Shown here in pieces: positions 12,091 to 39,866 of a DNA stretch of 64,000 nucleotides (positions within the stretch are counted from its first letter, which is position 1; every line of letters starts with the position of its first letter). Origin of the DNA: Paenibacillus sp. HGH0039 (lineage in GTDB: Bacteria > Bacillota > Bacilli > Paenibacillales > NBRC-103111); contig NZ_KE150412.1 of the NCBI RefSeq assembly GCF_000411255.1, positions 1,285,817-1,349,816 of the forward strand, read 5' to 3'. The notes below the pieces were generated by a model. It was given only the letters and a program-made list of their open reading frames with translations, searched no databases and was not told where the DNA came from. Both the position numbers and the translations under genes were made by a program.

Positions 12091-12276
12091 CAAATCCCTC
12101 CCAAAATAAATTAAATTTATGCATAGCCAGCATTTAAATGCCGGCATATCCATCTTGGTATGTATTAAATAAATTTCAGACTAATAGAACACGATTTCAT
12201 TCCACTTTTTACCATTTGTAAAATAACACCATTTATCTCTATTTCTTCAATACCATCTTTATTCTTCTTTCAAAAT

Positions 12277-23216: not shown

Positions 23217-23252
23217 AAAGAAACAGCCTCTTTACAAAGAGGCTGTTTCTTA
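23217..23252. terminator. Strong terminator of the five-gene DUF6603 operon
   Basis: A perfect 16-bp stem (AAGAAACAGCCTCTTT with its complement) closes a 2-nt loop. It separates the operon ending at 23435 from the chemoreceptor. The remaining DNA between 23253 and 23434 shows no gene. Confidence 0.85.
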
Positions 23253-23434: not shown

Positions 23435-25081
23435 CTACAAGGTTCCCAGCACATCGATTAAGGCTTTCTTCTTATCTTCCCCAATAGGTTTCTCCAAAAT
23501 CTCCTCCAGCAGCCGGGTCAGGAGCTCCACTCGTTCGGCACGTTCCGCTCCGTTCGTTTTCTCCAGGCCGTCGTACGGCAGAACGATATCTTCGGGAATT
23601 TCATCGGAGATTTTCACCGTAGCTTCTTCCCCGCTCGAACCGCTTCCTAGAGGAACAAAATAATAAACCGTACTCGGATTCACCTCATTGTCTTTGAAAA
23701 AGCTTTCGCCGACCCAGTAGCTTGCTCCCCTCCGTACCGGAAACATAAACGTGTTCGGGTTCGAATAATTGTACTTCGTCCAGTTGCCGGTAAAACCACC
23801 CGTATTCCCTCCGGTGGTCTGTACCATATATCCGTCGGTCCCTCCGTAAATCCAGCCCACCGATAAAACCTGCTTCCAGGGGAGGTGAACATAGCCGATC
23901 ACAAAGCCGTCCGTTCCCGCCATATGCGTACCGGTGCTGATCCGCTGGTTGTACCCGAGAATCCCGACGCTGCCCGCTGCGCTTAAAGCCCCTTTAACCG
24001 TGGTGTCGGACAGGTTTGACCCGCCGCCGACCGTCAGCGCTCCCTGCACCAAAGAACTACCGAGCGATGCGGAGCCCTGAACCGTAAGCAGGCCCGTAAC
24101 CGTCCCACCGGACATCGTTGCGGTGCCGGTTACGTTCAGCGCACTCTTCGCGTTCAGCATGCCGGTTACGTTCAGCGTGCCGGTTACGTCCGCGCCGCCG
24201 TTCAAAGATGCGGAGCCCGACACCTGCAGCGTCTTACCGTTCAATCCGGCGGCTGTCGCAATGTTTCCCGCTGCGGACACCGTGTTCGGCGTTTCGTCCG
24301 GGTTCGTGATATGTACGGTCACCGCTTCGTACACGTACAGCGTTTCGCCGCGAACCCCATCGGTCCGGCTTGCGATAAGAATAAAGGTGGTCGTCTGACT
24401 GAGGCCCTTCGTCACAACGAAAGAATTATCGGTTCCGCTGTACAGGGGAGCGGTGCCTGCCGTCGTAACAATCTGATACTGGCTGGCGTTGCCTTCCCAG
24501 CTGAGCTTGAACGCCTGGCCGTTCGCAAAGCTGCCGCCCGGCACGATGTCCGGTTTAGAGCTGTCGTAGGCGCCCGCCACAAAATTGCGTACAAAAATTT
24601 CCGGAAGCCCGATCGTCAAGCCGAAAGGCAGATCGCGCGGCTGATAGTCTCCGGAGAACGAGGAGGACGTCTCCAGGATGTGCAGGTTGCGGATGTCGCC
24701 GAGAGCGGCGGAGACCGAGCCGACGCCTACCGTCAAGATCAGTGGATAGTTAATCAGGTAATCCTGCGACGACTTGGCCGTAAATTTGAGCGGAATGTAG
24801 GATATGTCGGCCAGCCCCACCTCGCTGCCTTGGACGATCTTTCCGACCGCGTACTGCCACTTATCCGTATTGACACCCGGGTCAAAGATATCCTTCTGAC
24901 TAAGCACCCCCGAAGGAATATACAGATCGATTTCCGGACAATAAACTTCCTTCCCGGGGGGAGGGGTCACGACCAAGGTTACGGTGCCGGAAGCGGAATA
25001 TGTCTGCGTACTTGCCTGCAGGGGACTCGGTGACGTCAATATACTGTAATTCAAAAGTGCGGGGAGATCAGCTTTGCTCAT
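23435..25081 (-). CDS. Fibre-like protein with short beta-type repeats (fifth gene of the DUF6603 operon)
   Basis: A 548-residue protein of no recognised family. ATG at 25081 follows CCATGGAGGTTCAAACG. Residues 1-150 look like a beta-sandwich (SASGTVTLVVTPPPGK). Residues about 277-373 carry roughly 10-residue repeats of hydrophobic-x-V-x-G type (GTLNVTGMLNAKSALNV, GLLTVQGSASLGSS, GALTVGGGSNLSD), as in beta-solenoid fibre shafts. Residues about 380-490 form an aromatic Gly-rich tip-like domain (GFVIGYVHLPWKQVLSVGW). The last 50 residues form a charged helix (ERVELLTRLLEEILEKP). There is no signal peptide. Shaft-plus-tip layout suggests a binding fibre, but that is inference. Confidence 0.7.
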   Translation of the reverse strand: MSKADLPALLNYSILTSPSPLQASTQTYSASGTVTLVVTPPPGKEVYCPEIDLYIPSGVLSQKDIFDPGVNTDKWQYAVGKIVQGSEVGLADISYIPLKFTAKSSQDYLINYPLILTVGVGSVSAALGDIRNLHILETSSSFSGDYQPRDLPFGLTIGLPEIFVRNFVAGAYDSSKPDIVPGGSFANGQAFKLSWEGNASQYQIVTTAGTAPLYSGTDNSFVVTKGLSQTTTFILIASRTDGVRGETLYVYEAVTVHITNPDETPNTVSAAGNIATAAGLNGKTLQVSGSASLNGGADVTGTLNVTGMLNAKSALNVTGTATMSGGTVTGLLTVQGSASLGSSLVQGALTVGGGSNLSDTTVKGALSAAGSVGILGYNQRISTGTHMAGTDGFVIGYVHLPWKQVLSVGWIYGGTDGYMVQTTGGNTGGFTGNWTKYNYSNPNTFMFPVRRGASYWVGESFFKDNEVNPSTVYYFVPLGSGSSGEEATVKISDEIPEDIVLPYDGLEKTNGAERAERVELLTRLLEEILEKPIGEDKKKALIDVLGTL

Positions 25082-25121
25082 CGTTTGAACCTCCATGGGT
25101 TTAAGTGCTCTTATGGTTTGC

Positions 25122-25194
25122 TTTAGCTTTGGGTTTAGCTTTGGGTTTAGCTTTGGGTTTAGCTTTGGGTTTAGCTTTGGGCTTTGGGTTTAGC
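25122..25194. repeat. 12-bp tandem repeat at the junction of two operon genes
   Basis: Five perfect copies of TTTAGCTTTGGG (25122-25181) plus a degenerate partial copy run into the stop codon of the 1310-residue gene. In a shifted minus-strand frame the repeat encodes K-A-K-P units that end at a TAA just before the next ribosome binding site. Confidence 0.9.
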
Positions 25195-28100
25195 CTTCAG
25201 ATTCAGATTCGGATGTGTCCCTCTTGCCGGGCTCCGAAGGTCCGGTTCCGGTCCCTTGAGCGAACCCGCTCCGGAATTGCAGCGTGCCTTCGCGCAGCGA
25301 CAGCGACCGGGAGTTCAGCCGGGCCTGCTGGCCGATTTCGGTCAAAGTGTACGTCAGAAAAGCGGACGGTCCGTCTTCTCGGGATTGCGGCTCCAGCCAC
25401 TTCCACTGTCCTCCGTTATCCGAGGGAACGGGGAGCGTTATAACGCCTGACGGTCCGTTCTCTCCACCGGCTGTCTTATCCGGAGCCGGCTGAAGCACGG
25501 TCAGGATCGGCCCCGTCCGGAATTGGAGGTTTAACGCGCTCAGCACGGGATCGGTAAAACGCGCAGGCAGCTCCAGAGCCTGCACCGGAACGATGCCCGT
25601 AACCGCGTGAACCGCAGCGCGCGGATCCAGCAGCAGCATCACTTCGGCCTGCCGTGCGCCGTCAAACCGCAGCGAGAAGAAATTGCCGGGTCCGATCGGC
25701 CGGACATAACCGGCCGCTTCCTCTCCCGCTGCAAGCGGGTGGACGCTGTTAAACCGGTCGTAAGCGCCGTTAAGAAAATAGCCGATCAAGCCGTCCTTCC
25801 GGATTTCCGTGTCGCCCAGTCTCACCTCGTAATCGTTACCGGTAAAATCGGACGGCGGCGGATTGAAGGTGGCCGCCCAGCCGGTATACCTCGCGGCCGG
25901 TCCGTCCAGCGCCAGCTTCAGATTGGCGCGCACGAGCGCAAGCGGCCTTCCCGCGAGGACCGACACGTTCCGGTCGCTGCTTGCGGCGAGAGGATCGATC
26001 GTCCACAAGGAGGCATCGATCGCCTCAAGAAAGCGGCTGAAGGCAACTTCGTCCGCAGCCGTCAAGCTTTGCAGCATTTTGGCCAGCTCGGGCGCCCGCT
26101 TCTCAATATCCGCAAGATTACCGTAAGTACCCAGCGGCGCATAGAGCAGATGAACCCGTTTGACGCCGTCTTTTCCCGTGATCAGGCCGACGTCCCCGAC
26201 AGCGCCGCCCTGCGCATCGTATACGGATACCGAGCCGTTAAGATGATTCGGGAGCAGCCAGCCCGCAACGGGGTTCGCCAGGCTGTCCAAGTCGGCAAAC
26301 CTTCCCGCGTCCCGCGCGTCAATAAGACGGAAATCGAGGCGGATATGCTGATTCGGCCTCGGCGGCAGCTGGATGAACCGCTGGGCATTCTGCGCCTCGA
26401 TCGGCGCGTCCGGCGCAAGACCTTCCGACAAAATCGGCTCAAACACGTCGGAGCGGCTGAGCCCCGAATCGCCGATTACTTCCAGCACTTGCCCGAACGC
26501 ATCGTACACGGCTAAATAGGCGAAGGCGAACTGTCCCTGCCGGACTCCCTGGAATTCCAGCGTATCGCCGGTCGAGCGGATATAAGGGAGATCGTGATAT
26601 TCGTCGCCGACGAGATCCGCCAGCGTTTTTTGCCCGCCGTCCTTAAACGTAAAAGTTAATCCGGGATCCGGCGACCGGTTTACACGCGTATCGCGTACAG
26701 CGAGCTGGCTGCCGAAACCGCCGAGCGATTGGGAGATAAAATCCCAGCCGTCGATATCTTCGATTAAACCGTCGAGCTGATCCAACAGCCCTTCGTCCGT
26801 ATCTTCCGCTTCGCCTTGGCGCGTATGGACGAGTTTTTTCAACCGGTCCCGGAAAAGAAAGCTTGTCTGCGGCGTCAGCAAAATGTCTCCCCCGATCTGC
26901 CGGTCGTTCGAACCGGAGGCTTTGCCGTCATACCGGTAATCGGTTCCGTCGAACGTCCAGTTGGAATGCCCGATCGGATACCAGTCCGCCACCCATTTCA
27001 GAAGGAGCGGATTCCAGGGCTGCTGCCAGTCTCCGGGGACGAAGGCGGGGAGTATGCCTTGAAAACGGGCGGGATCGTGCCCCGCAATTATTTCCCGAGT
27101 GATCCCGGGATGACCCGCGGAAATGACCGGAGCGTTGTCCGGATCGAGCAGGAAAAACTCGGCCAGCAGCAAACCGACTGCGCCGGCAAGCTGCAAAGCA
27201 GTGTCCGGCGGGATGTAATCGCCCTGAAGAGCGGAGGCCAGTTCCGGCAGACTCAGCGGAAGCTTGGGCAGCGCCGCTGCCAGCTCATCCGCCGTCACGC
27301 TGTCGGTGCCGATGGTGATCCCGCCGACGATTTGCGCCGACAAGCGGCAGGACAAAGAACTGTCCGGACCGCTTATCCGGCCCGTACTTCCCGCACCGCT
27401 GATGAAGACGACGGGATCATTGGCCCGCCAGTAGCGGGGTCCTGCCACCGGCTTAAGGCTACGGTCCGCGTTCAGTTCCCCTTGGGCGCGCTTCGCCCGT
27501 TCGAAAGCTTCGATCCCGGCCGCCAGCGCCTCTTCCGGGGTCTGGCCCTCCCCTTCCGCCGGCCGGGGCACGCCTTGGCCGATCAACGATCCTGCCTCGC
27601 CGATGAGATCCATGATCTTCCTCGGCAGGCTGGCGATATTGTCCGGTCCTTCAGGCTTGGACGGATCGTAAGACGGATCGTTTTCGGCGGAGAGCGCCTT
27701 TGCGAATTGATCCTCGGTCAACCCGTCCGGCCGTGCGAATACCGGGTAGGATTCGTATTTCCCCCGCTTCCACCACGTGTCGTAAAGCCGCCTCCGGGCG
27801 GCTTTCAATTCATTCAGTTTTTCGTCCAGCGCGGCCTGCGTACCGTTCAGTGCCGTGAGCCATTGTTCCGGCGGACGTTCTCCGAGATTGTCCGGCCGGT
27901 CGGACTTCGCATCCACGACCGTCCACCGGTATCCGCCCGGCTTCGAGCCGAACCATTCCTGCCGGATACGGAGATCAAGAAGATCCCAGCCGCTCGGCTG
28001 GTCAAGTATATGAAGCATATCGTACTGAAACGCTTCGAGCAGTCCGGCCGCGTTGGGCATCTTCGCAAGCAGCTGCTGCGCTTTAACGTCGCCGTTCTTC

Positions 28101-29122
28101 GCTCGGTCGTTCAGCTGGCGCTCAATCATCGCTTTAAAAGCATCGGCCGACGTATTTCCGACCGCCACATGTATCCCTTTGCCCGCGGGATCTTTGTATT
28201 TGTCCTTGACCGTCGGCAGCACGCCCGAGCGGCTCCACTTCACGCCAAGCACCATTCCGTGGTACAAGCTGGCCTGCGGGACGTCGCCGTCCGGCACGGC
28301 GGAGCCGTCAGCGGGTCCGGCGGAGGCGGCTTTCTGAACCGTCCACGAGAACTCCGCAAGCTGCCGTTTGTAAGCGTCAACCGGCGAGCTTCCGGAAGGC
28401 TTTGCGCTTTGGCATTTTTGCAGGGGATCTTCCGCATGATTGGAATACCAGCCGGCCACCAGATAACTCACCGCGCACTCCGGCTCGGCATCATCCAATG
28501 GATCCCGGAAGGAAAACACCTGGCTGCAGTGGCTTTGAAACGCGCTGAAAAGCGGATTGCCCGGAGCGACGGCTTTCACAAACAGTTGTTCGATGCCTTT
28601 TTCCGACCAGCCGCTCAAATCGAATACTTGTCCGAGCACATCCGCGATTTGCCGGCCGCTGCCCCCTAACCGCCCGCCAGCCTGCTGCCGCACAGGATCC
28701 TTGCTTCCTTTCCACGCCTCTATAACGGCCGGATCAAAAACATAAGCCGCCGAACCCGCTCCGCCGGGTGCGTCGCTTTCCACGAGATACGCTTTGGATA
28801 CGCGTCCGGCGGAAGTTCCACCAAAGCGCACGACTAGCCAGCGGTTCGGGACCAGGGGGAATTCCACGCGCCGTGTGACCGGGTCCTGAACACCGTGTTT
28901 TAACGCGTCGGGAAGCGTCCAGTGTACGTAAACGCCGGTATGATCGTCCGGATTTCCCGCGAAGCCTCCGCCCCGGTCCGTCGGATCGGGCTCGGAGCTT
29001 CCGAAGCTTTTGACCTGGGTATAATTGTGCTCCCAGCGCCGGAAAGGCTGGTTGGCCCAAACATACGCGTTTACCGCAAGAGCACTGACCTCGACGGGAA
29101 CCAATAAGGTTGAATTATCCAT
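25190..29122 (-). CDS. Large unassigned protein (1310 residues), fourth gene of the DUF6603 operon
   Basis: A very large soluble protein I cannot assign. It starts MDNSTLLVPVEVSALAV behind a GGAGGAAAATC-type site, 14 nt after the preceding stop. Visible conserved-looking blocks include GVYVHWTLPDALKHG near residue 65, FPLVPNRWLVVRFGG near residue 92 and PRYWRANDPVVFISG near residue 562, the last followed by a long beta-rich half with many Asp/Gly/Pro turns. There is no signal peptide and no transmembrane segment. The C-terminus is acidic and Ser-rich (RDTSESESEG) and stops inside a 12-bp repeat tract. It is likely to act with the neighbouring 783-residue and DUF6603 proteins. Confidence 0.75.
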   Translation of the reverse strand: MDNSTLLVPVEVSALAVNAYVWANQPFRRWEHNYTQVKSFGSSEPDPTDRGGGFAGNPDDHTGVYVHWTLPDALKHGVQDPVTRRVEFPLVPNRWLVVRFGGTSAGRVSKAYLVESDAPGGAGSAAYVFDPAVIEAWKGSKDPVRQQAGGRLGGSGRQIADVLGQVFDLSGWSEKGIEQLFVKAVAPGNPLFSAFQSHCSQVFSFRDPLDDAEPECAVSYLVAGWYSNHAEDPLQKCQSAKPSGSSPVDAYKRQLAEFSWTVQKAASAGPADGSAVPDGDVPQASLYHGMVLGVKWSRSGVLPTVKDKYKDPAGKGIHVAVGNTSADAFKAMIERQLNDRAKNGDVKAQQLLAKMPNAAGLLEAFQYDMLHILDQPSGWDLLDLRIRQEWFGSKPGGYRWTVVDAKSDRPDNLGERPPEQWLTALNGTQAALDEKLNELKAARRRLYDTWWKRGKYESYPVFARPDGLTEDQFAKALSAENDPSYDPSKPEGPDNIASLPRKIMDLIGEAGSLIGQGVPRPAEGEGQTPEEALAAGIEAFERAKRAQGELNADRSLKPVAGPRYWRANDPVVFISGAGSTGRISGPDSSLSCRLSAQIVGGITIGTDSVTADELAAALPKLPLSLPELASALQGDYIPPDTALQLAGAVGLLLAEFFLLDPDNAPVISAGHPGITREIIAGHDPARFQGILPAFVPGDWQQPWNPLLLKWVADWYPIGHSNWTFDGTDYRYDGKASGSNDRQIGGDILLTPQTSFLFRDRLKKLVHTRQGEAEDTDEGLLDQLDGLIEDIDGWDFISQSLGGFGSQLAVRDTRVNRSPDPGLTFTFKDGGQKTLADLVGDEYHDLPYIRSTGDTLEFQGVRQGQFAFAYLAVYDAFGQVLEVIGDSGLSRSDVFEPILSEGLAPDAPIEAQNAQRFIQLPPRPNQHIRLDFRLIDARDAGRFADLDSLANPVAGWLLPNHLNGSVSVYDAQGGAVGDVGLITGKDGVKRVHLLYAPLGTYGNLADIEKRAPELAKMLQSLTAADEVAFSRFLEAIDASLWTIDPLAASSDRNVSVLAGRPLALVRANLKLALDGPAARYTGWAATFNPPPSDFTGNDYEVRLGDTEIRKDGLIGYFLNGAYDRFNSVHPLAAGEEAAGYVRPIGPGNFFSLRFDGARQAEVMLLLDPRAAVHAVTGIVPVQALELPARFTDPVLSALNLQFRTGPILTVLQPAPDKTAGGENGPSGVITLPVPSDNGGQWKWLEPQSREDGPSAFLTYTLTEIGQQARLNSRSLSLREGTLQFRSGFAQGTGTGPSEPGKRDTSESESEG

Positions 29123-29136
29123 GATTTTCCTCCACT

Positions 29137-31488
29137 CTACTGCGGCTTAACTGTCATGCCCGGTTGAAACACGATCCGCTCCGGAGATTTAACTATCTGC
29201 AGGGCAAAATCGGAAGGGTTCAGCGTCAATTGGTCCAATTTCAGCGCTTGCTTGATCGCATCGGCCGACTGCTGCACAAGCCCGTCCGCCTGGTCGGGCC
29301 TCAAGTCCAGAACTCGTCCCGGTCTCAAATGCCGGTCGCGAACCGATAAATGCACGTTCAATTCCGAACCGAAGGGAGATCCGGAACGGTCCGGCAGCAC
29401 GCTGCGCAAATTAATTTCCCCTTCCTCGTTCAGACCGAACTGGAACCCTTCCTGAGGCTCGCTTAGCTCAATCCTGTCAGGGATGCCGCGGAATAAGGCG
29501 AGCAGCACGCTGGACGAAAGCCGCTCCAGACGGGCGATCCCGAGCGGAAGCCCCACGGCGTCGAAGGCGCGCACCGCAAGTCCCGGCCATCCGGCAACCG
29601 CAGCGGACCGGAGCAGAAAGCCCGCCAAGGGCAGGGCTTCCCCGCCAGGCGCCGCGCTCCGCCCATCTCCGGGGCGGGTACGGACGGTTTGCGCGGCCGC
29701 TTCGGCTGCCGCCCGGATCGTTCCTTTGGTCATGCCGTACGTAAACGAGTCGCGGCTGGAATGCATCGCGATTGCCAGCATGCCGTCCAGCATGGCGTCC
29801 AGCCAGTTCGAATCCAGGTAAAAAAACCGGATGGATTCGGACGGCAGCATTCGCTCCTCCGGTACCAGATAATAGAACGGTACGTCGTACAGTAGAAGCT
29901 TGTAGGCGAGCCACAGCGCAATCGGCTCCAGATCGTCCCGCGTCAGCTCCGCGACCGCCTCTTTGACCTCATCCCCGGCCAAAAATTGCTGCAGCGCGGC
30001 AACGGGACTTACGCCGGAGCCTTCCTGGAGCAGTTGCCGGCGCGCGGAAAGATTCTGCTGCGGGCTGTCCTGCGGCAAACCGTAGAGAGGCGGCTCCGGA
30101 ATTTGCTCCAGCAAATCCCCCTTCATCGCGCCGAGCAGCGCCTCCCGCATCAAGCCAGATTGCGCGAGCTCCTTCAAATCGGCGGCGTCCGTCAGCCCCG
30201 AAGCCTCCAGCCGGTGATACAGCAGGTCTGTCAGCCGGTGGCAGCGGCGGCGGTAATCCAGGAGCAGCGAGCCGAACGTGGCGTCGGACAGAGCAAGACT
30301 GCGCCCGATCTGCCAGGCGGCCGCCAAAGAAGCGTCAAACAAGCCGTTCGCCTTGTCGTAAATCAAGGCCGCATCCGCCGTGAGCAGCGGTTCCGCGGGC
30401 AGGAAGGAAGCCGGCCGGACCGGAGCGAGCGGCCCCCGGTACCAGGCGAAGGTGTCCTCCCCGCTCCGGATATGGAACGGAAGGGGCACATAACCGCTGC
30501 GCAGCCGCTTCCTCGCTTCGGCACCGGCCGCGTCGTCCGGCGGCGCTGTCCGCTCCTCTCCTCCGTCCGCCGCCCCTTGCGGCAGCCGGAGCAGCAAAGC
30601 GCCCGGATCATACGCGGCGCCGGACATTTCCTCGGCCACCAGGCGATGCATGAGGCCGGCGAAATCTTCCTTGCTGTCGGGACGGCAGCGGAATGTCCAC
30701 CTGGCGAGGGACAACAGGGCGATTTTCTCTTTAGGCGGCTTTGCGCCGGGCTGCAGAAGATCGTCGAATTTTTCCAGCGATACGAGATGAACAATGTTTC
30801 TCGAGCCGCCTTCATCGGTCTCCTGCGCGTAAGGAAACCGGTTGCCCGTTACGACGCTGTACCACCCGTCCTCCTCGTGCCCGGCTGCCTTATCCTGCGT
30901 ATTTACCTGCCTGACGTGCGTCAAATAAGGCAGCTCATTCAGCTGAGGGATGATCGACTGGAACACACCCGCATCCATTTGAATGTAAAAACAGGTCTGG
31001 CCCTCGGTCACGTCCGCCTCCCGGACCAGAGTCTGGGGGACATACACGTCGGGGCTGTTTTTCAGCCCCATAAATTCGCCGGCCGTCGAACGGATGGCCA
31101 GCGTCTCGGCATCCGTCCGGTCGGCAGGACCGGCCAGAAGCTCCTCTTCCTGGAAAAGAAGCAGGGCCAGCCAGGGGATGTTCGGCCCGCTCATCTCACG
31201 CTCCCACGGCAGGACCCGTGTATTCAGCACCAAGTGCGGAAGCTCGTCGGCAAATTTGCCGGTGCTGCCCGCGGGCGGCACCAGGCTGTGGATCTCCGAA
31301 GGGTCGATCGCAAACTGCGGGGCGTGCACGATAAAGGGTTGTTCGGCCATCAGAAGAGCTTGCTCCTGAGCGGTAATCCCGATATCCTGCACGGACTGCT
31401 TTACGGTTACCTTGTAATTTCCGGCGGGTAAGCCGGGTAAATCATGATCATAAAACCGGATTTGACCCTGCTGGGGTTCGTCACTCAT
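29137..31488 (-). CDS. Large unassigned protein (783 residues), third gene of the DUF6603 operon
   Basis: A soluble protein of no recognised family. ATG at 31488 (MSDEPQQGQIRFYDHDLPG) follows GAAAGGAGCGGAAAAC. The first 250 residues look beta-rich: LPGLPAGNYKVTVKQSVQ, then PFIVHAPQFAIDPSEIHSLV, then LPHLVLNTRVLPWERE and LALLLFQEEEL. A helical central part follows (LTDLLYHRLEASG, LIYDKANGLFDASLAAAWQI), and the end returns to strands (LNVHLSVRDRHLRPGRVLDL). No signal peptide or membrane segment. The gene lies 14 nt after the DUF6603 stop and 14 nt before the 1310-residue start, so translation is probably tightly coupled. Confidence 0.75.
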   Translation of the reverse strand: MSDEPQQGQIRFYDHDLPGLPAGNYKVTVKQSVQDIGITAQEQALLMAEQPFIVHAPQFAIDPSEIHSLVPPAGSTGKFADELPHLVLNTRVLPWEREMSGPNIPWLALLLFQEEELLAGPADRTDAETLAIRSTAGEFMGLKNSPDVYVPQTLVREADVTEGQTCFYIQMDAGVFQSIIPQLNELPYLTHVRQVNTQDKAAGHEEDGWYSVVTGNRFPYAQETDEGGSRNIVHLVSLEKFDDLLQPGAKPPKEKIALLSLARWTFRCRPDSKEDFAGLMHRLVAEEMSGAAYDPGALLLRLPQGAADGGEERTAPPDDAAGAEARKRLRSGYVPLPFHIRSGEDTFAWYRGPLAPVRPASFLPAEPLLTADAALIYDKANGLFDASLAAAWQIGRSLALSDATFGSLLLDYRRRCHRLTDLLYHRLEASGLTDAADLKELAQSGLMREALLGAMKGDLLEQIPEPPLYGLPQDSPQQNLSARRQLLQEGSGVSPVAALQQFLAGDEVKEAVAELTRDDLEPIALWLAYKLLLYDVPFYYLVPEERMLPSESIRFFYLDSNWLDAMLDGMLAIAMHSSRDSFTYGMTKGTIRAAAEAAAQTVRTRPGDGRSAAPGGEALPLAGFLLRSAAVAGWPGLAVRAFDAVGLPLGIARLERLSSSVLLALFRGIPDRIELSEPQEGFQFGLNEEGEINLRSVLPDRSGSPFGSELNVHLSVRDRHLRPGRVLDLRPDQADGLVQQSADAIKQALKLDQLTLNPSDFALQIVKSPERIVFQPGMTVKPQ

Positions 31489-31502
31489 GTTTTCCGCTCC
31501 TT

Positions 31503-34500
31503 TCACGGCTTCACCTGCATGGGAGAATCGGTAAAGAGATCTCCCGCTTCTTCGGCAAGACGGGGCAAAGGTCCGTTCGTGCCGCTGTAGGCCTGCATGC
31601 CTTGCAGCGCCGCAAATATGGCGGCCCGGTTGGCCGCGGAGGGACCCATAACTCCCGCAATGTCTCCCGGTGTCGTATCGGCCGGAACGGGCGCATAATC
31701 GGTATTCGCGGCCCCTCCGGGCTCGAACGGGAGCCGCCCCTGCGGCACCACGTCATCGTAAGCGAGCAGGTCCGCCTGCAGGCCTGCCGCCGAATAACCC
31801 AGCTTCGATCCGGGAGGAGTAACCGTTAAGCCCGCGGGCGTATTCCGCGTCGTATCGCTGCCCGGCACCTGCGGATTGCGCATAAACCGGCCGTCCGCGT
31901 CCTTCAGCGGCTCTCCCCACAGCGCCGTCGGCATGTTCCGGTAATACGGAACGAGCTGCCAACCGGAAATATCGTGGTCCAATCCGTCTTTTTCGACCGT
32001 CAGGTGATGCTTGGACGAGACGTTCGTTTTGTTCATTGTCCGGATGTGTACGGGGTAGGCTTCCGGGTATTTCGGGTCCGTCACCGGGTTCGTCGCTTGG
32101 CCCGCCGTGAAATGACTGGCCGGAATCGCCGTCTGTGTCGTAAAGCTGAAGGAGCCCGCACGGACCAGCCAAATATCCGGTCCCGGCCCGGAAGGGGATG
32201 GCCCCGCCGGATCGGAAAGTTCCGATGTCTGAGATGGTTGAGATGGTTGGGACAGTTCATATGGTTGGGATGGCAGGAACGCTTCATGCAGTTGGGACGG
32301 TTCGGATGATTGAGACGGTTGGGACGTCTGAACCGGCGGCACCGCCATGTCCCCCTCCCCGCTCCCCGCAGCATCTTCGCTGTCTGATTTCAAAGCCGTA
32401 CCCGAGGCGCCGGGAGAAAGCGAGCCTGTCAAACCGGCCACGGCCGTAATTTTGCAGACGTTGTCGAGAGAAGGGAGCAGCGATTTAAACTCGCCCCACT
32501 CGATCGGGCTTTCGTCCCCGTCCGAGCGGTCCGCTCCGAATCCGACCGTGAACGAGATGACCCACCAGTGCACGTGGGCCTTTCCGCCCGTCGGCGGTCC
32601 CCACAGCTCTACGGATGCCCCCAGCTCGACGCTGATCGTTTTGGTTACGAACAGCAGGTCCAGACGGTACGAGGCCCCGATGCTCACGCTGATACCCGCC
32701 TGGAAATGGAACGGATGGAAGGTGATCAGCAGATCCGCACGGGCCGTGAACCAGGCTTTTAGGTCGCCGTCGTGAAAAAGAACTTCCAAACCCCCGCCGG
32801 CCATAACGGCTGCCGGAGTCAGGGCGAAATAAGCTTCGCCGTGTATGTTCACATAGTCGCTGACCGCCCAATTGAAGCCGATCCGCGGCACGGCCGGGTA
32901 AAAGGACGGAGGCTTGAAGCTCGGATGATAGCCGCCGAAAGTGACGACGAACTGCCCTTCTCTCTCCCCTTCGTACCATAGATAAAAAGCGAAGCCGCCC
33001 GTCAAATGACAGTTCGGATCGATCAGGAAAGAATTCGGAGTCAAAAGAGCCGTCAACCCGAAGAAACCGGCGGACGGCTTCCAGTCCGCTTCCAGCTGCA
33101 GCTCCGCGTAAGCGTACATGGTGTTTCCGGCCTGGGGCAGACGAATGGAGGAAAGCCCGAGCAGGGCCAGCTCCAGCTCCCTGCCGAATTTGGCGATAAG
33201 CAGGGCGCGGGTATGCAGCAGCTCGTACGACCAGAAATCGACGCCCACGGCCAGCCAGTACTCGCCGGTTTGAGGACGGATCCATGCCCTTTTCTTGCCG
33301 GGAGCGTATTCCTGCGTTCCTTCCAGCTGCGCCATTACGTCGTTCATCGACAGTTTAGGCCCCGTGTCCCGGGTCAGGGCGAGCAGCGGAAATTCGAATA
33401 CTTCCTCGGGCGCGGGCATATTTACGTCCCGGTTATAGCCGAAACCGGCGGACAACCCGGTCACAAACAGTGCGGGCGGACCGCCGAGCGGCGTATCCAC
33501 ATTCGCGAACACGAAGAGCGACGGCTGCCCATCGAGCATTTGCGCGTACGAACCGAGCGCTTCCAAGGCAAAATCGGCCGTCCGGATCGTAGCGGCCCCG
33601 TCATACATAAACCGGGCGCCCTCCGGCGGAGGCACGACTTCCATAAAGCTGCCGCCGATTTCCAGAGGTGCCTGAGTGTAATCCACGCCGATTCCGAGCA
33701 GCTGGAATTTAAGCTCGAAACGATCGAGCGGGGAACCGAAGCCCATGCCGGCCAGACTGATCGTCAAACCGGATGAGGTTAAAGAGCCGTCCAGCATAAA
33801 CCAGAGGGTCCCGTCCCCGTAACCGATGCCCAGGCGGGTGATCGAAACGGGGCCGAACGTTTTCTGCACAAGGAACCACTTAGCCGAAGATGCCGGGGAT
33901 GTGGAGGACACGGAAGAGAAAGCCGGGACAGGAGGGCCGCCGGACGGTGCGGACACCGACTCGTAAGCCGCGGGCGATTCCCAGGCATCCGGATTGGCCG
34001 GGTCCTGCTGCCCGGACGCTTCCGCAGCCAAGGGCTCCCGGAGAGCGGGCTGTTTCTGCCCTCCCCCCGGTATAAGCGCGAAAGACAACGTTTGCGGCGT
34101 ACCGCCAAAACGGAGATCCGCGCCCGCGGTCAGACCCGCCTCCACTCCCGACGGCAGCGGGTGAACCGATTCCGGCAGCAGCTTGTTGATCTGTCCCGCC
34201 TGGACCGGTGTAAACGGGGCAGATGCGTACAAAATCTGCAGCTGCTGAACGGCAATCGTATCGTCGGCAGGAAGCTCTTTGCCGATAAGGGGCAGATCGG
34301 TCAAGCTTACATGCGCGTCAAGGTCAAGCCCGAGGGCAAACTTGCTCTCTTTCTCGTCTTTGTAAAAAATGAATTTCACATCCCGAAGATCGATCGCCAG
34401 GCTCTGCGGGATTTCCGCCGCCAGCTCCGGTGACAGGGACGCAACCAGATCGCGGATGGAAACGGCGGGCGGGGAGCCGCTTTTCCGGCTGTATGTCGCT

Positions 34501-36386
34501 ATAAAGGTTTGCGAGGTCAGATCCTGCCGGTCAAACAAAAGATCGAACTCCAGCGATCCGATGACGATCTGACCGCCGAAAAAAGCCTCATACCGGGCTC
34601 CGGCTGGATCGCCCGTTCCGGTCTGGTTCGAAACGACGCGGATGCTCAAGGTTAAGGCAACGGGCACGGAATTCACTTTGAAATCGCTCTCGACCGTAAA
34701 AAAGAAGCTGTTCCCCGAATCGGAGGAAGCGTATTTCAGCTCCAGATTTTTTAGCGTCATCCCGCGTATGGGAGCAGGAATGCCCACGTCGAATTTGGCC
34801 GCGAGATCGTCCAGCAATTCCCCCATCGGTATTGGGTTCTCTTTCCCCGCTTGGACCACGATGTTCCAGCCCCCCCGAGACGTGCCGCCGGAAGTATCGC
34901 CCGAACCGGCCTCCAGCGACAGACGGGCGTCCACTCCGGCGATGGTCATCGTCCCTTCCAGATTGAAGCTCGGCTGGCCGTCGTAATCCAGTTCGAACAC
35001 GAGATTGTTCATCACAAACGTGTTCGGGCCCGTTCCGAGCGGATGCTGGGCCAACCCCGCCCGGATAAAGTATGTGCCGGCGGTGGAGCCGCCCATCTGG
35101 AACTCCTCCACCGCTATTTTGTACGCGCCCGTCGGCAGGCCGAATTTGGCGGCGATCATCGTGAGGTCGATTTCGCTCCACGGCTCCATCCGTACGACGA
35201 CCGACAGATCAGGAATCCTTGGCGAGGGAACCAGGTTCGCCGAAACGAGCAGATCGACGCCCCCGATGTCCAGAATCCCGGACATTTTGTAGGAAGCGCT
35301 CGGATGATCGAACGGGTTCCGGACGGCCACGGCCGCCTCGATATCGCCGATTTCAACCCAATTGGGGACGATAGTCAGCGGCTTGTCCTCAAGTGCGGTA
35401 AGCGTCGCCTTCACGTACTCCACGCTTCTGGAGCCGAGACCTATACCAAGGGCCAAACGTCCGATCTTGACGGACGCAAGCATGCTTTCAAACGACGGAG
35501 GAAGATACTCCGTGATGCTGACGCCGCCGAACCAATGGGCGATGTCGTCAGGGGAAGGAAGATCCACCGGGCCTTCCAGGGAAAGCTCGGCAATTCCTCC
35601 CCCCGCGGGCAGAATCAGCGAGGTAATCCGAACCGGCTGTCCGTTCCACTGGATCGTCGCCGTGATTTCCAGCCCGGACGGCGCACTGGCTGCCGCAGGG
35701 TCATGAACGAGCCTGGCGTCGACGGGCACCTTCATCGCCTGAAAAAGCCCGGATAACCCGCCGCCGTCATCCGGCAGCTTCAGGTCGAGCGACAAGCCCG
35801 GCGCCCCAGTATCCCGCAAAACCGCGGGACCGAACGCCAACGGACCTACGCCGATTACCCAGTCCGCTTCCTGCAGCAGCCCTTTTGTTTCGTCAAGCGC
35901 GCCGTAGAAATAAACCGCCCCGTCCATGTCGAGGTTCAGCTCGGGTTCCGCGGCTTTTCCGGCGGCGATCAGCCATCTCGGAGCTGTTCCGTCCGTACCG
36001 GGTTTAAGCGCCAGGTCCTGCCAGAACGTGTTCGTCAGCCAAGGCAGCGCATCCCCGAAGCGCCAGTCCGGCGTTACGAAAACCGAGAGCACGAGCACCG
36101 GTTCCGAGTCCGCCCCGTATACGGCGCCGTGGACCGAAGCCGTTTTCTTCGCCGAAAAAAACATCCTCGCCGGGCTGCCGGCCAGTTGAAGACCCGCGCC
36201 TTCAAAGGTAATGATCCCCCCCGATTCCGCAGGAGCCGTCCGTACCCCGGTCACGGTCAGGGTGCCGCTTCCCGTCAATTGACGGAGCTTCTCGCCTGTC
36301 GGGCCCAGCTTCGCCGTATCCAGCGTCAGCGTGCCGCTCCCCGCTTCGTACATAGTTTGAAGATCGGACAGAAAGCTCACGCGCAC
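31503..36386 (-). CDS. DUF6603-type giant protein (1627 residues), second gene of the operon
   Basis: A 1627-residue soluble protein, almost wholly beta-rich. Residues about 1090-1285 match my memory of DUF6603: LLTPNSFLIDPNCHLTGGFA, GGYHPSFKPPSFYPAVPRIG, FALTPAAVMAGGGLEVLFHD, KAHVHWWVISFTVGFG. A second conserved-looking block is LVQKTFGPVSITRLGIGYGD near residue 840. Earlier parts contain repeated amphipathic strand units (LKNLELKYASSDSGNSFFF, SLAIDLRDVKFIFYKDE). Residues about 1350-1395 form a Ser/Pro/Gln linker (SQPSQPSQTSELSD) before a further 230-residue domain. No signal peptide or membrane segment. The function of DUF6603 is unknown. Confidence 0.8.
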   Translation of the reverse strand: MRVSFLSDLQTMYEAGSGTLTLDTAKLGPTGEKLRQLTGSGTLTVTGVRTAPAESGGIITFEGAGLQLAGSPARMFFSAKKTASVHGAVYGADSEPVLVLSVFVTPDWRFGDALPWLTNTFWQDLALKPGTDGTAPRWLIAAGKAAEPELNLDMDGAVYFYGALDETKGLLQEADWVIGVGPLAFGPAVLRDTGAPGLSLDLKLPDDGGGLSGLFQAMKVPVDARLVHDPAAASAPSGLEITATIQWNGQPVRITSLILPAGGGIAELSLEGPVDLPSPDDIAHWFGGVSITEYLPPSFESMLASVKIGRLALGIGLGSRSVEYVKATLTALEDKPLTIVPNWVEIGDIEAAVAVRNPFDHPSASYKMSGILDIGGVDLLVSANLVPSPRIPDLSVVVRMEPWSEIDLTMIAAKFGLPTGAYKIAVEEFQMGGSTAGTYFIRAGLAQHPLGTGPNTFVMNNLVFELDYDGQPSFNLEGTMTIAGVDARLSLEAGSGDTSGGTSRGGWNIVVQAGKENPIPMGELLDDLAAKFDVGIPAPIRGMTLKNLELKYASSDSGNSFFFTVESDFKVNSVPVALTLSIRVVSNQTGTGDPAGARYEAFFGGQIVIGSLEFDLLFDRQDLTSQTFIATYSRKSGSPPAVSIRDLVASLSPELAAEIPQSLAIDLRDVKFIFYKDEKESKFALGLDLDAHVSLTDLPLIGKELPADDTIAVQQLQILYASAPFTPVQAGQINKLLPESVHPLPSGVEAGLTAGADLRFGGTPQTLSFALIPGGGQKQPALREPLAAEASGQQDPANPDAWESPAAYESVSAPSGGPPVPAFSSVSSTSPASSAKWFLVQKTFGPVSITRLGIGYGDGTLWFMLDGSLTSSGLTISLAGMGFGSPLDRFELKFQLLGIGVDYTQAPLEIGGSFMEVVPPPEGARFMYDGAATIRTADFALEALGSYAQMLDGQPSLFVFANVDTPLGGPPALFVTGLSAGFGYNRDVNMPAPEEVFEFPLLALTRDTGPKLSMNDVMAQLEGTQEYAPGKKRAWIRPQTGEYWLAVGVDFWSYELLHTRALLIAKFGRELELALLGLSSIRLPQAGNTMYAYAELQLEADWKPSAGFFGLTALLTPNSFLIDPNCHLTGGFAFYLWYEGEREGQFVVTFGGYHPSFKPPSFYPAVPRIGFNWAVSDYVNIHGEAYFALTPAAVMAGGGLEVLFHDGDLKAWFTARADLLITFHPFHFQAGISVSIGASYRLDLLFVTKTISVELGASVELWGPPTGGKAHVHWWVISFTVGFGADRSDGDESPIEWGEFKSLLPSLDNVCKITAVAGLTGSLSPGASGTALKSDSEDAAGSGEGDMAVPPVQTSQPSQSSEPSQLHEAFLPSQPYELSQPSQPSQTSELSDPAGPSPSGPGPDIWLVRAGSFSFTTQTAIPASHFTAGQATNPVTDPKYPEAYPVHIRTMNKTNVSSKHHLTVEKDGLDHDISGWQLVPYYRNMPTALWGEPLKDADGRFMRNPQVPGSDTTRNTPAGLTVTPPGSKLGYSAAGLQADLLAYDDVVPQGRLPFEPGGAANTDYAPVPADTTPGDIAGVMGPSAANRAAIFAALQGMQAYSGTNGPLPRLAEEAGDLFTDSPMQVKP

Positions 36387-36449
36387 TCCCCCTTTCCTTT
36401 TTTACACAAGTTCCAATACATCCCGGAGCCCAAGCGCTTCCTGCCAGCC

Positions 36450-37886
36450 TTATACATATTGAAGCTCCATCCGGATCGGTAAATGATCGCTGATGGCATA
36501 ATGGTACACATAATGGGCTTCAAACAAGGAAGACGGCGGTCCCGCCAGCTTAGGCGCGGCATTAAGCATATCGGTAACCGCTTTCGATTTGCGTTGCTTC
36601 GCATTTTGCCGGTCCCACCAGTTGTTGTAAATCGTTTGGGCCAGACTTCCCAGTTCGGGGGAATAGGAAGCAGTCGTTGTAGACCGCGTCTCCATAATGG
36701 GAGTACCGCCGGGCTGAACGCCGATTTGTACGCTTTTAGGGATCATGGCATCCATCAGATTGACCACAAAGGCCGCCGAAGGATCGGCTTTGGGGGCTTT
36801 TACGAAAAATTTATCGTACTCGCTGGACAGCACACTTTCGATATTCGTGGGACTTGCAACGGTGGTGGAGGGATTCACAAGGATTGAAGTGAGACTCGTT
36901 TTGCTGTTCCACAGCCTTTTTCCGTAATTGAGTACGGTTGACAAGGCCGGATCGCTGGCGGGTTTGGGGAAATCGGGGCCGGTAATGCGCTGAAAAGGAT
37001 GCGCATAGATGTAGGCGTTCTGGGCATCGCGTACATATTGGAGTCTGCCGAGGCTCATGTCAAAATAATTGAGCGCCCATTGTTTGGCCGCGTCCGTCGC
37101 GTTCACGTTAAAATCGCCCATAATGACGCCGACAGCCGCATTCTCGACGGTAGGATTCAATTGGTTGCTGGCGATAATCGGCAGGCTGTCTCCGGGTCCG
37201 GGTGCATGGTAAAGAACGAGGGTGAGGTCGACATTCGTTCCGCTCGTCAGGGCGCGCAGTACGAAAGGCGGGCGGGAACCGCGAAGCGGGAACGCTTCCG
37301 GCGATTCGGCCAGGAGCAGATCGACGATGTCCTTTTTCTGGGCGTCGGTCAAGGCAATCGTGGGGGCTTTCTTCGTCAAATCCAGCAGTTTGTAATTTTT
37401 TAGCATCAGCTCGAACTTTTTGTAAGGAATCATAAAGGCCGCATCGAGCCATCCGTTCTTGAACAGGCTTTTCCAAAACAACTCCTGATCGCTTTTGCTC
37501 ACTTTGTACGTTTTGAAATACGTGTCGAACATGGTCTCGCCGACGACGTTCCATAGCAGGCTTGCCTGCCTGCTGAACAGGCCGCTTTTCCATAGAAACA
37601 CATACTGCTCATTGGGGCGCGCCGGCGTCATTTCACTCGCTTCTCCGGTCCAGGTGATGCCGCTGCCCTTGCCGTTGTTCTTTTTCTTCTCCAGGTTGTT
37701 GAGGCAGGTGACGAGCGTGTCCTTGATTTCGTTGCCGAGCCAGCCGACCAGCTCCATAATTCCGACGACATCCGATTCGGTCATTTGAATGACCCGGGCG
37801 ACGTACTCGACAAACGACGTGTCGTTCATCTTGTCCTCCCCGAATTTTTCAATGTTCCACGATAAAAGCTTGAGTGAACCTGACAC
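36450..37886 (-). CDS. Endonuclease/exonuclease/phosphatase-fold enzyme, first gene of the DUF6603 operon
   Basis: A 478-residue enzyme of the DNase I/exonuclease III/sphingomyelinase fold. GTG start at 37886 follows ACGGGAGGCATGAGCA. Catalytic motifs are intact: SWNIEKFG (residues 9-16), DVVGIMEL with the metal-binding Glu, LVLYHAPG with His, IMGDFNVNA with Asp and Asn, and a C-terminal YAISDHLPIRME with Asp-His. A long insert between GIMEL and the His motif is larger than in DNase I. There is no signal peptide. It heads the operon, 63 nt before the DUF6603 gene. Nuclease or phosphodiesterase activity is likely; DNA, RNA, lipid or nucleotide substrate cannot be told. Confidence 0.85.
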   Translation of the reverse strand: MSGSLKLLSWNIEKFGEDKMNDTSFVEYVARVIQMTESDVVGIMELVGWLGNEIKDTLVTCLNNLEKKKNNGKGSGITWTGEASEMTPARPNEQYVFLWKSGLFSRQASLLWNVVGETMFDTYFKTYKVSKSDQELFWKSLFKNGWLDAAFMIPYKKFELMLKNYKLLDLTKKAPTIALTDAQKKDIVDLLLAESPEAFPLRGSRPPFVLRALTSGTNVDLTLVLYHAPGPGDSLPIIASNQLNPTVENAAVGVIMGDFNVNATDAAKQWALNYFDMSLGRLQYVRDAQNAYIYAHPFQRITGPDFPKPASDPALSTVLNYGKRLWNSKTSLTSILVNPSTTVASPTNIESVLSSEYDKFFVKAPKADPSAAFVVNLMDAMIPKSVQIGVQPGGTPIMETRSTTTASYSPELGSLAQTIYNNWWDRQNAKQRKSKAVTDMLNAAPKLAGPPSSLFEAHYVYHYAISDHLPIRMELQYV

Positions 37887-38057
37887 TGCTCATGCCTCCC
37901 GTCTTGAATCCCGTTTCAAAATAGAAACAAGGAATTGGATCACTTATACTTTTCTACTATAATTACCATTTCCCTCCTGTAAGAGAGCTGAAATTTGTGG
38001 AATGGTTATGGGGACCAAGATTACTTTTGTGCACGAATTACCTGACTCAAGAACAAG

Positions 38058-38091
38058 GAAAAACCCCTGACACCAACTGTCAAGGGTTTTA
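38058..38091 (-). terminator. Terminator after the DUF2569 gene
   Basis: AAAACCCTTGACA pairs with TGTCAGGGGTTTTT on the minus strand with one wobble and a short loop, followed by a T-run. It insulates the DUF2569 gene from the operon starting at 37886. Confidence 0.8.
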
Positions 38092-38804: not shown

Positions 38805-39506
38805 CTACCGCTTCGCTTTGTAAAACTCATGATACAGCTTCATCAGCGCACGCTTCTCGATGCGTGACACGTAGCTCCGTGATATGCCCAATTCCTTCGC
38901 GATTTCGCGCTGGGTCCGCTCTTCACCGCCGTGCTCCAGCCCGAAACGTCCGACCACCACTTCTTTTTCACGTTCGTCCAAAATATCGAGGTTGCGGTAA
39001 ATCTTGCTTTTCTCGATCTTCAGCTGCACCTTGTCGACGACGTCGTCCGCTTCCGTACCGAGGATATCGATCAATGTGATTTCGTTGCCCTCTTTGTCGG
39101 TTCCTATCGGATCGTGTAGAGAAACGTCTTTCCGGGTCTTTTTCAGAGAACGAAGGTGCATCAGGATTTCATTCTCTATACAGCGCGCCGCGAAAGTCGC
39201 CAGCTTGGTCCCTTTGGTCGGAGAAAAGCTTTCGATCGCTTTGATGAGGCCGATCGTTCCGATCGAAATGAGGTCTTCCAGATCCTCGCCGGTGTTGTCA
39301 AACTTCTTGACGATATGTGCAACAAGCCGAAGATTATGTTCGATGAGCAAATTGCGGGCATGGGCATCGCCTTCCGCCATTTTTTGCAGATACTTGCTTT
39401 CTTCCGCCTCGGTGAGGGGCTGCGGGAACGCGTTGTTTTTGACATACGATACCAGCAGTGTCAGTTCTTTGATAAAAAAGGCAATGGCGCTAAACAATCC
39501 TGGCAA
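38805..39506 (-). CDS. sigK: RNA polymerase sporulation sigma factor SigK precursor
   Basis: The late mother-cell sporulation sigma factor, 233 residues, driving spore coat and germination genes. The frame is open upstream, but TTG at 39506 lies 7 nt after GCAGGAGGT and gives the family start ([19 protein letters not shown]), a 20-residue pro-sequence removed by SpoIVFB before [11 protein letters not shown]. Region 2 ([37 protein letters not shown]) and the region 4 helix-turn-helix ([20 protein letters not shown]) are intact. The gene is continuous, so there is no skin-type prophage interruption. A terminator follows. Very sure. Confidence 0.96.
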
Positions 39507-39866
39507 AGAGGACACCTCCTGCTCCAATTCCCGTACCAACCATGGATTAACGGCTGCGGTCTTCTCATTGTATGAGGGCAGGTGCCTAATTGTGCCTGTA
39601 CGGGCGGATTTGGTGGGGGGATTCAAGGAATGAACAGCGATGAACTATTCAAAGTGAATTCGTTCCCTTCCTTGTCTATTGGAAGGAGTTGTCCGGGAAT
39701 CCGCTGGATTGAGCATAGATGTATCAGGTTCTCGATACTTATGCACAGATTACAGTTAGTTGGAAGCTCGTTTCTTCACTTTTATTCGACAAAATCCCCC
39801 CATTTCCCACACTGGAAAAATATGCTTAAATGAGGGTTGTACCTATATTTAGAATGGAGATAGAAG
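39507..39866. other. Gene-free divergent region between sigK and the 39867 stalk-protein gene
   Basis: No supportable gene. It must contain the sigK promoter on the minus strand and that of the plus-strand stalk protein. I could not place either with confidence. Confidence 0.5.

Follow-up and report, generated by a model that had tools for sequence, protein, structure and literature searches.

What do five consecutive genes, most of them for large proteins without an assigned function, make together? The question is raised by a 64,000-nucleotide stretch of the Paenibacillus sp. HGH0039 genome (contig NZ_KE150412.1, hereafter the window), which has on its minus strand five consecutive open reading frames (ORFs) around a giant protein with the domain DUF6603. 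An earlier note on this DNA had proposed that the large proteins assemble into one complex or particle, with the EEP-fold enzyme of the first gene as effector and the last protein as binding fibre. Our comparison of these genes across genomes suggests, with a probability of about 0.5, that the operon specifies a self-contained assembly of several proteins, with an exchangeable enzyme cargo and an exchangeable binding fibre, which has spread horizontally; its assembly, release and target are what we infer from this pattern. The five genes are as follows.

36450..37886, minus strand: EEP-fold enzyme, 478 aa, GTG start; putative exchangeable payload gene
31503..36386, minus strand: DUF6603 giant protein, 1627 aa, GTG start; putative core scaffold, with PF20248 at residues 840-1402 (about 32181-33869)
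29137..31488, minus strand: G3, 783 aa from the ATG at 31488 (789 aa from the first GTG at 31506); putative core scaffold, no known family
25190..29122, minus strand: G4, 1310 aa; putative core scaffold, no known family
23435..25081, minus strand: G5, 548 aa from the ATG at 25081 (553 aa from the ORF start at 25096); fibre-like

The gaps of 63, 14, 14 and 108 nt given in the earlier note are reproduced when the ATG codons at 31488 and 25081, the latter preceded by GGAGG, are taken as the starts of G3 and G5. Only the DUF6603 protein and the EEP enzyme match a Pfam family over its cut-off, and G3, G4 and G5 have no match over cut-off in Pfam or NCBIfam. The DUF6603 assignment (PF20248) has an E value of 6.9e-154 and 513.6 bits against a cut-off of 27. 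The literature searched, which lacked most subscription journals and preprints, does not mention DUF6603 or PF20248 by name, and so describes no function or context for this family. All five genes show dN/dS values of 0.09-0.28 in comparison with Paenibacillus sp. UNC499MF, indicating purifying selection, and because of these values and the recurrence of DUF6603-G3-G4 across phyla, we regard the five genes as more than a chance arrangement.

The DUF6603-G3-G4 core

A profile search of a genome collection with the DUF6603 domain yielded 72 loci (these and further loci are numbered with L below). Profiles that started from the proteins of the window were then run on them and detected DUF6603 in 72/72, G3 in 70/72 and G4 in 67/72 loci; the three occur together in 66/72, and their order, DUF6603-G3-G4, is maintained in 63 of these 66. 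Two of the exceptions (L042 and L087) have G4, a LamG protein and a metallo-beta-lactamase fold (MBL) gene before DUF6603, and the third (L086) is an artefact of an over-extended ORF in the profile; starts were placed at the first start codon and some profile ORFs are over-extended at the 5' end. The hosts of DUF6603 with G3 belong to nine phyla (Actinomycetota, Bacillota, Pseudomonadota, Bacteroidota, Acidobacteriota, Cyanobacteriota, Thermodesulfobacteriota, Gemmatimonadota and Myxococcota), though the family is uncommon: it was found in two genomes, the window's own and one other, out of 398 from the same phylum, and in 25 of 199 genomes of Streptomyces, the genus of S. noursei.

The association also holds when genomes rather than loci are counted. 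Of 117 relatives, six have G3, and exactly these six have DUF6603 over cut-off; this gives no clean probability because five of the six come from one genus; two more relatives show sub-threshold DUF6603-like matches without G3. In the 35 genomes reached via the loci, G3 lies within 6 kb on the same strand for 50 of 56 DUF6603 rows and DUF6603 lies nearby for 61 of 64 G3 rows, the remaining three being partial or weak matches, and in all 62 pairs G3 is downstream of DUF6603. G3 was matched in 11 of 101 Streptomyces genomes, ten of which also have DUF6603; the match in the eleventh (G233) spans only about 200 positions. Two others (G167 and G231) show weak G3 matches just downstream of divergent DUF6603 genes. 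The G3 search covered 101 Streptomyces genomes and the DUF6603 search 199, so that G184 and G202, which have DUF6603 and are not in the G3 list, possibly lie outside the 101. By gene content and order, DUF6603, G3 and G4 are thus one conserved unit in distant lineages, as the earlier note had supposed for the large proteins.

In seven divergent loci (L006 and L094-L099), a weak G3-like match follows DUF6603 in five and none was found in L006 or L096; all seven have a downstream gene for about 1500-2300 aa and, where the stretch continues, a smaller one after it. Loci in which DUF6603 lacks a clear G3 are thus, at least in part, divergent forms of the same arrangement. An even more distant form may be a 2902-aa Paenibacillaceae protein (L102, 2418-13259), which is DUF6603-like at 26.5 bits against the cut-off of 27 and has a PLD-like gene beside it. 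The DUF6603 protein of Aquimarina (L038, 3761-13387) has 3208 aa; for residues 1-1970, Pfam gave nothing at E <= 0.01.

The structure of the window's DUF6603 protein was predicted for residues 428-1627 as a long antiparallel beta meander (mean pLDDT 74.7, pTM 0.58), with 35 predicted strands of at least 8 residues between residues 438 and 1274. Porins, SlpA, LptD, ushers and apolipoprotein B-100 come nearest among known structures, and 12 of these matches reach a Foldseek E <= 0.001. They are aligned at a root mean square deviation (rmsd) of 11-16 A (VIA) and a TM score of about 0.1 (Foldseek), so the matches should be read as 'very long beta sheet', not as 'porin', and are no true superposition. 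The alternate faces of the strands differ in hydrophobicity more than in shuffled sequences (z 5.7); sorted faces are also normal in soluble beta proteins. G3 was predicted as mixed alpha/beta (pLDDT 84), and a structure search of the PDB with this fold gave no match at E <= 0.001. Thus, of the two proteins predicted, the label 'large beta-rich' suits the DUF6603 protein and does not suit G3. In at least eight other loci, the match to G3 is divided between two consecutive ORFs, with the junction near one and the same position of the profile. G4 has no credible PDB relative by sequence and no profile similarity to G3 or DUF6603.

Exchangeable genes at the two ends

To compare what lies in front of the core, we defined an enzyme slot: a same-strand gene immediately before DUF6603 whose end falls within -42 to +100 nt of where that ORF starts. 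The slot is occupied by an EEP, MBL or RIP-like protein in 17/72 loci: EEP in five (four Paenibacillus and one Roseivirga) as well as in the window, MBL in nine and also in two of five plasmid loci, and RIP-like in three. The slot profiles were built from these proteins themselves, and the scan with them found no further kind of member. Two other loci of the 72 have a masked sequence for the gene just before DUF6603, which is left without a class.

The window enzyme belongs to the EEP superfamily (PF03372, Exo_endo_phos; 26.1 bits against a cut-off of 24.5), and so does its Roseivirga homologue (31.0 bits). Residues N11, E45, D258, N260, D467 and H468 are invariant in three aligned proteins, including the Roseivirga one at 22% identity; conserved N, E, D-x-N and D-H are the catalytic motifs of EEP enzymes, in agreement with the intact catalytic motifs described in the earlier note. 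The MBL ligands H69, D73, H74, D179 and H217 are likewise invariant across 11 proteins, which are 20-28% identical to the first of them, and the RIP-like trio shares an invariant ExxR and W. The roles of the MBL ligands, of ExxR and W and of the EEP residues are familiar from their families. Over the Pfam cut-off are, besides the two EEP enzymes, the MBL proteins of L062, L042 and L023 and the RIP-like protein of L053; apart from the sub-threshold matches named further below, the other slot proteins were assigned by homology to these. Where it is recognised, the gene in front of the core is therefore an exchangeable enzyme with conserved catalytic residues. The EEP enzyme sits where other loci carry other enzymes, as expected of the effector that it had been supposed to be; it is not a core gene.

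Other enzymes occur near the same place. A Desulfobacterales locus has a patatin-like gene, at its cut-off, two ORFs upstream of DUF6603, and the front genes of divergent loci encode peptidases M64 and S32 (both over cut-off), Trypsin_2 (below it) or proteins of PG-binding or WD40 families. A Lewinella (L064, 1759-3472) and a Methylovulum (L091, 7473-9169) locus each have two small genes before DUF6603, for about 390 and about 165 aa, which are related between the loci; one of each kind was scanned and gave no Pfam match.

At the other end, the conservation profile of G5 falls into three parts: residues 1-270 are best conserved, residues 271-390 form a repeat stretch, which weakly matches a phage spike chimera (E 0.057), and residues 391-548 form a variable, poorly conserved tip. 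A G5-family gene is present in 49/72 loci, each with the whole core, and two or three G5 genes stand in a row in 6/72. Among the loci without G5, some encode other proteins of a binding type near the end place: collar (L064, over cut-off, and L045), an S74 chaperone (L034), LamG (L030, L042 and L087) and Kelch (L059). The conserved N-terminus, the repeats and the variable tip of G5, with these proteins near its place elsewhere, are consistent with the idea that the last protein is a binding fibre. The expectation that all five genes would recur in the same order in distant genomes is borne out for DUF6603-G3-G4 and fails for the two ends; the five are not an obligate set, EEP being found only in Paenibacillus and one Roseivirga locus and G5 being missing from some loci.

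Signs of horizontal spread, neighbourhood and transcript

The tree of the DUF6603 core has 75 rows; it omits L014-L017 (genomes already represented), L018, L019 (no match), L041 and L044 (second copies), L006 (divergent) and L092-L102. On this tree, two gains or losses are needed for EEP, two for RIP-like and seven for MBL. EEP stands in two separate places: the Paenibacillus EEP loci group with RIP-like and MBL loci and not with the Roseivirga EEP locus. Phyla interleave, for example Lewinella with Methylovulum, which points to horizontal transfer.

The five-gene unit is also portable within Paenibacillus. P. chitinolyticus, P. lutrae and Paenibacillus sp. FJAT-26967 have the five genes at 37-51% identity to those of the window, and the window's neighbour genes were not found in them within a few kb on either side; the neighbourhood in UNC499MF is the same as in the window. 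A scan of 136 of 187 flanking ORFs from 32 loci gave no recurrent partner family among the commonest 25 of 186 Pfam families: most are ordinary genes and the largest count is four, one family with this count being AAA_21, which is also used in defence systems. Two GmrSD_N genes lie near the Lachnospiraceae DUF6603-G3 pair (L063, 6642-10312). In the window itself, a gene for an M60 enhancin-like peptidase with F5/8 and NPCBM domains lies at 9874-12153 (minus strand).

The probable edges of the transcript are these.

23218..23251, minus strand: perfect 16-bp hairpin with a 2-nt loop, read by eye from the sequence; likely operon terminator
37956..37983, minus strand: weak sigma-70-like promoter CTTACA-16-TATAGT, about 70 nt before the EEP start; a consensus match only
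38060..38090, minus strand: terminator-like hairpin between the DUF2569 gene and the operon; likely upstream transcript edge

The first hairpin is the stem terminator that the earlier note had described, and its 16 pairs are indeed perfect; it is missing from our terminator scan because the scan requires a loop of at least 3 nt. The remaining terminator-like sites in the scan are all inside coding sequence. Sigma-70-like matches such as the one before the EEP gene number seven in the region, against 4.6 expected. Much of the G4-G5 gap is filled by five perfect copies of a 12-bp tandem repeat (25122-25181).

As for export, no signal peptide is apparent by eye at the N-termini of the five proteins, in line with what had been said before. 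The companion statement, that none has a membrane segment, needs a reservation for G4: its hydropathy (Kyte-Doolittle, 19-residue window) peaks at 1.85 at residues 641-659, a borderline hydrophobic stretch, compared with 1.63 for G5 and 3.34 for the neighbouring MCP. The operon contains no further gene as a candidate immunity gene, immunity families not having been searched for.

A proposed delivery assembly and its alternatives

A kept body with exchangeable enzymes and binding proteins and horizontal spread marks extracellular contractile injection systems (eCIS) and umbrella weapons, and in part Tc toxins. We therefore propose that the operon encodes an assembly working like these systems, and that this assembly would be of a new kind because none of the proteins defining eCIS, umbrella particles or Tc toxins was found among the five and no sheath was found in the genome. 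The features shared with eCIS are retained structural genes, binding fibres, varied enzyme effectors, evidence of horizontal transfer and release by lysis, and S74 domains are common to eCIS and DUF6603 loci; eCIS operons, on the other hand, mostly have 15-28 genes with sheath, tube and baseplate, and their enzyme gene is 3' and not 5' as here (PMC8213781). Tube, baseplate and ATPase families gave no match among the five proteins at E <= 1 (Pfam), and the contractile sheath family Phage_sheath_1 (PF04984) none at E <= 0.001 in the whole genome, while three of 14 control genomes match it. TcA, TcB and TcC/RHS are the defining families of Tc toxins, whose enzyme is the C-terminal part of TcC and not a separate gene as here; a Pfam sequence scan did not find these families among the five proteins. 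The likeness to Tc (ABC) toxins lies in a few large proteins with a variable toxic enzyme (PMC7861908). The umbrella particles of Streptomyces are multi-protein particles with varied toxins and varied lectins, in which UmbC forms an ALF-repeat ring, UmbA proteins are trypsin-lectin proteins and some particles have immunity genes (PMC11062931). The trypsin-like domain of UmbA recalls the trypsin-like front genes of two divergent DUF6603 loci; Pfam matches to ALF repeats or to a trypsin-lectin UmbA were not found in the five proteins. None of the five matches any PHROGs family at E <= 0.01, and DUF6603 had no match in 50,697 phage records and no confirmed one in the viral_contigs set.

In the proposed assembly, DUF6603 with its very long beta meander, G3 and G4 would form the body, on which the N-terminus of G5 would dock while its tip binds a target surface. 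The EEP enzyme would be carried as cargo and would cleave phosphodiester bonds of a nucleic acid or a lipid, either inside the target or at its surface. That signal peptides were not seen suggests release by lysis or by a non-classical route. The target is the least certain step; with no candidate immunity gene inside the operon, it may be a eukaryote and not a sister cell. A bolder version of this proposal, doubtful at present, is that DUF6603, G3 and G4 are a class of delivery particle without phage or Tc ancestry visible by sequence, in which the DUF6603 meander is the membrane-active part and carries the exchangeable enzyme into a cell chosen by the exchangeable fibre.

Several observations weigh against the proposed assembly. 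Most rows of the tree (55/75), including a 24-row, mostly Streptomyces clade, lack any of the three recognised payload classes, so that cargo may be not obligatory, placed elsewhere or of unknown kind. Moreover, the payload label is more clustered on the tree than in shuffles, with 11 changes against 19.1 when 'none' is counted as a state; such counts are soft because 'none' mixes true absence, genes of unknown family (L030, L054, L064 and L091), the two masked genes and loci at contig edges, and also takes in the patatin-like and the divergent-locus enzymes. The label is thus clustered, yet it has changed repeatedly. Some enzymes are weakly assigned: matches are below the Pfam cut-off in L048 and L060 (MBL), L029 (RIP) and L096 and L099 (Trypsin_2), the RIP-like protein of L077 has no Pfam match and was placed by homology only, and most MBL members were placed by alignment and not by the Pfam scan. 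G5 was not found in 23/72 loci, partly through contig ends, and the collar match of L045 is below its cut-off. Finally, MBL, patatin, protease and PLD folds also act in intracellular defence.

The last point leads to an unlikely alternative, in which the giants sense or trap a phage or other invading element inside the cell while the gene that varies in front of them (EEP, MBL, protease, lipase or PLD) would encode an abortive effector of a new defence system. The overlap of the enzyme set with defence effectors and the lack of visible signal peptides would suit it, one MBL payload matches the Avs1a and 6A-MBL models, though far below their cut-offs, and single loci adjoin GmrSD (L063), Cas3 (L055) or CATRA/CHAT (L005) genes. 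However, none of the five proteins matches a defence model of PADLOC-DB 2.0.0 at E <= 0.01, the commonest flanking families are mostly ordinary ones in spite of AAA_21, and the collar, S74, LamG and Kelch proteins are of kinds suited to extracellular binding. Another alternative is a layer or appendage of the cell or spore surface, made of DUF6603, G3 and G4, whose enzymes and adhesive fibres would serve attachment or the use of nutrients, not killing. To this the beta-rich giant, the adhesin-like distal gene and the varied hydrolases correspond, as does a gene for a SigK-like sporulation sigma factor (38805-39626, minus strand; NCBIfam SigK, 394 bits), which is two genes and 0.9 kb upstream of the operon and is kept beside it in UNC499MF. 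We nevertheless consider a surface complex quite unlikely: many host lineages are not known to sporulate, no anchor or signal peptide was seen, and sigK does not adjoin the module in P. chitinolyticus, P. lutrae and FJAT-26967. A sporulation promoter common to the relatives was not found either: the window's loose sigma-K-like match is not shared by UNC499MF, and such matches arise in about 19-25% of shuffled upstream regions, although the other three relatives do share a similar site near -138.

A very improbable reading takes DUF6603 for a lipid-handling groove or belt and the operon for a complex that transfers or modifies lipids, which EEP, PLD or patatin would then have as substrates. It draws on the long beta meanders among the structure matches, such as apolipoprotein B-100, LptD and ushers, and on the sorted strand faces; both lose force, as said above, by the poor superposition and by the soluble beta proteins, and payloads of the MBL, RIP-like and protease kinds do not act on lipids. 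Among the defence, toxin-delivery and spore-surface roles, which the earlier note had left equally open, delivery or antagonism fits best.

Three large families without a function thus prove to be a single unit, in nine phyla and with signs of horizontal transfer, beside changing enzymes and fibre-like genes. Such a pattern is typical of known protein weapons and gives a strong lead: environmental bacteria may possess a machine for delivery or antagonism that has gone unrecognised. The source of the five-gene set studied here is a soil bacterium, and its core recurs in very distant bacteria. DUF6603, until now a Pfam domain without a function, thereby becomes testable, and through gene position it may serve as a bait for payload enzymes and binding tips.

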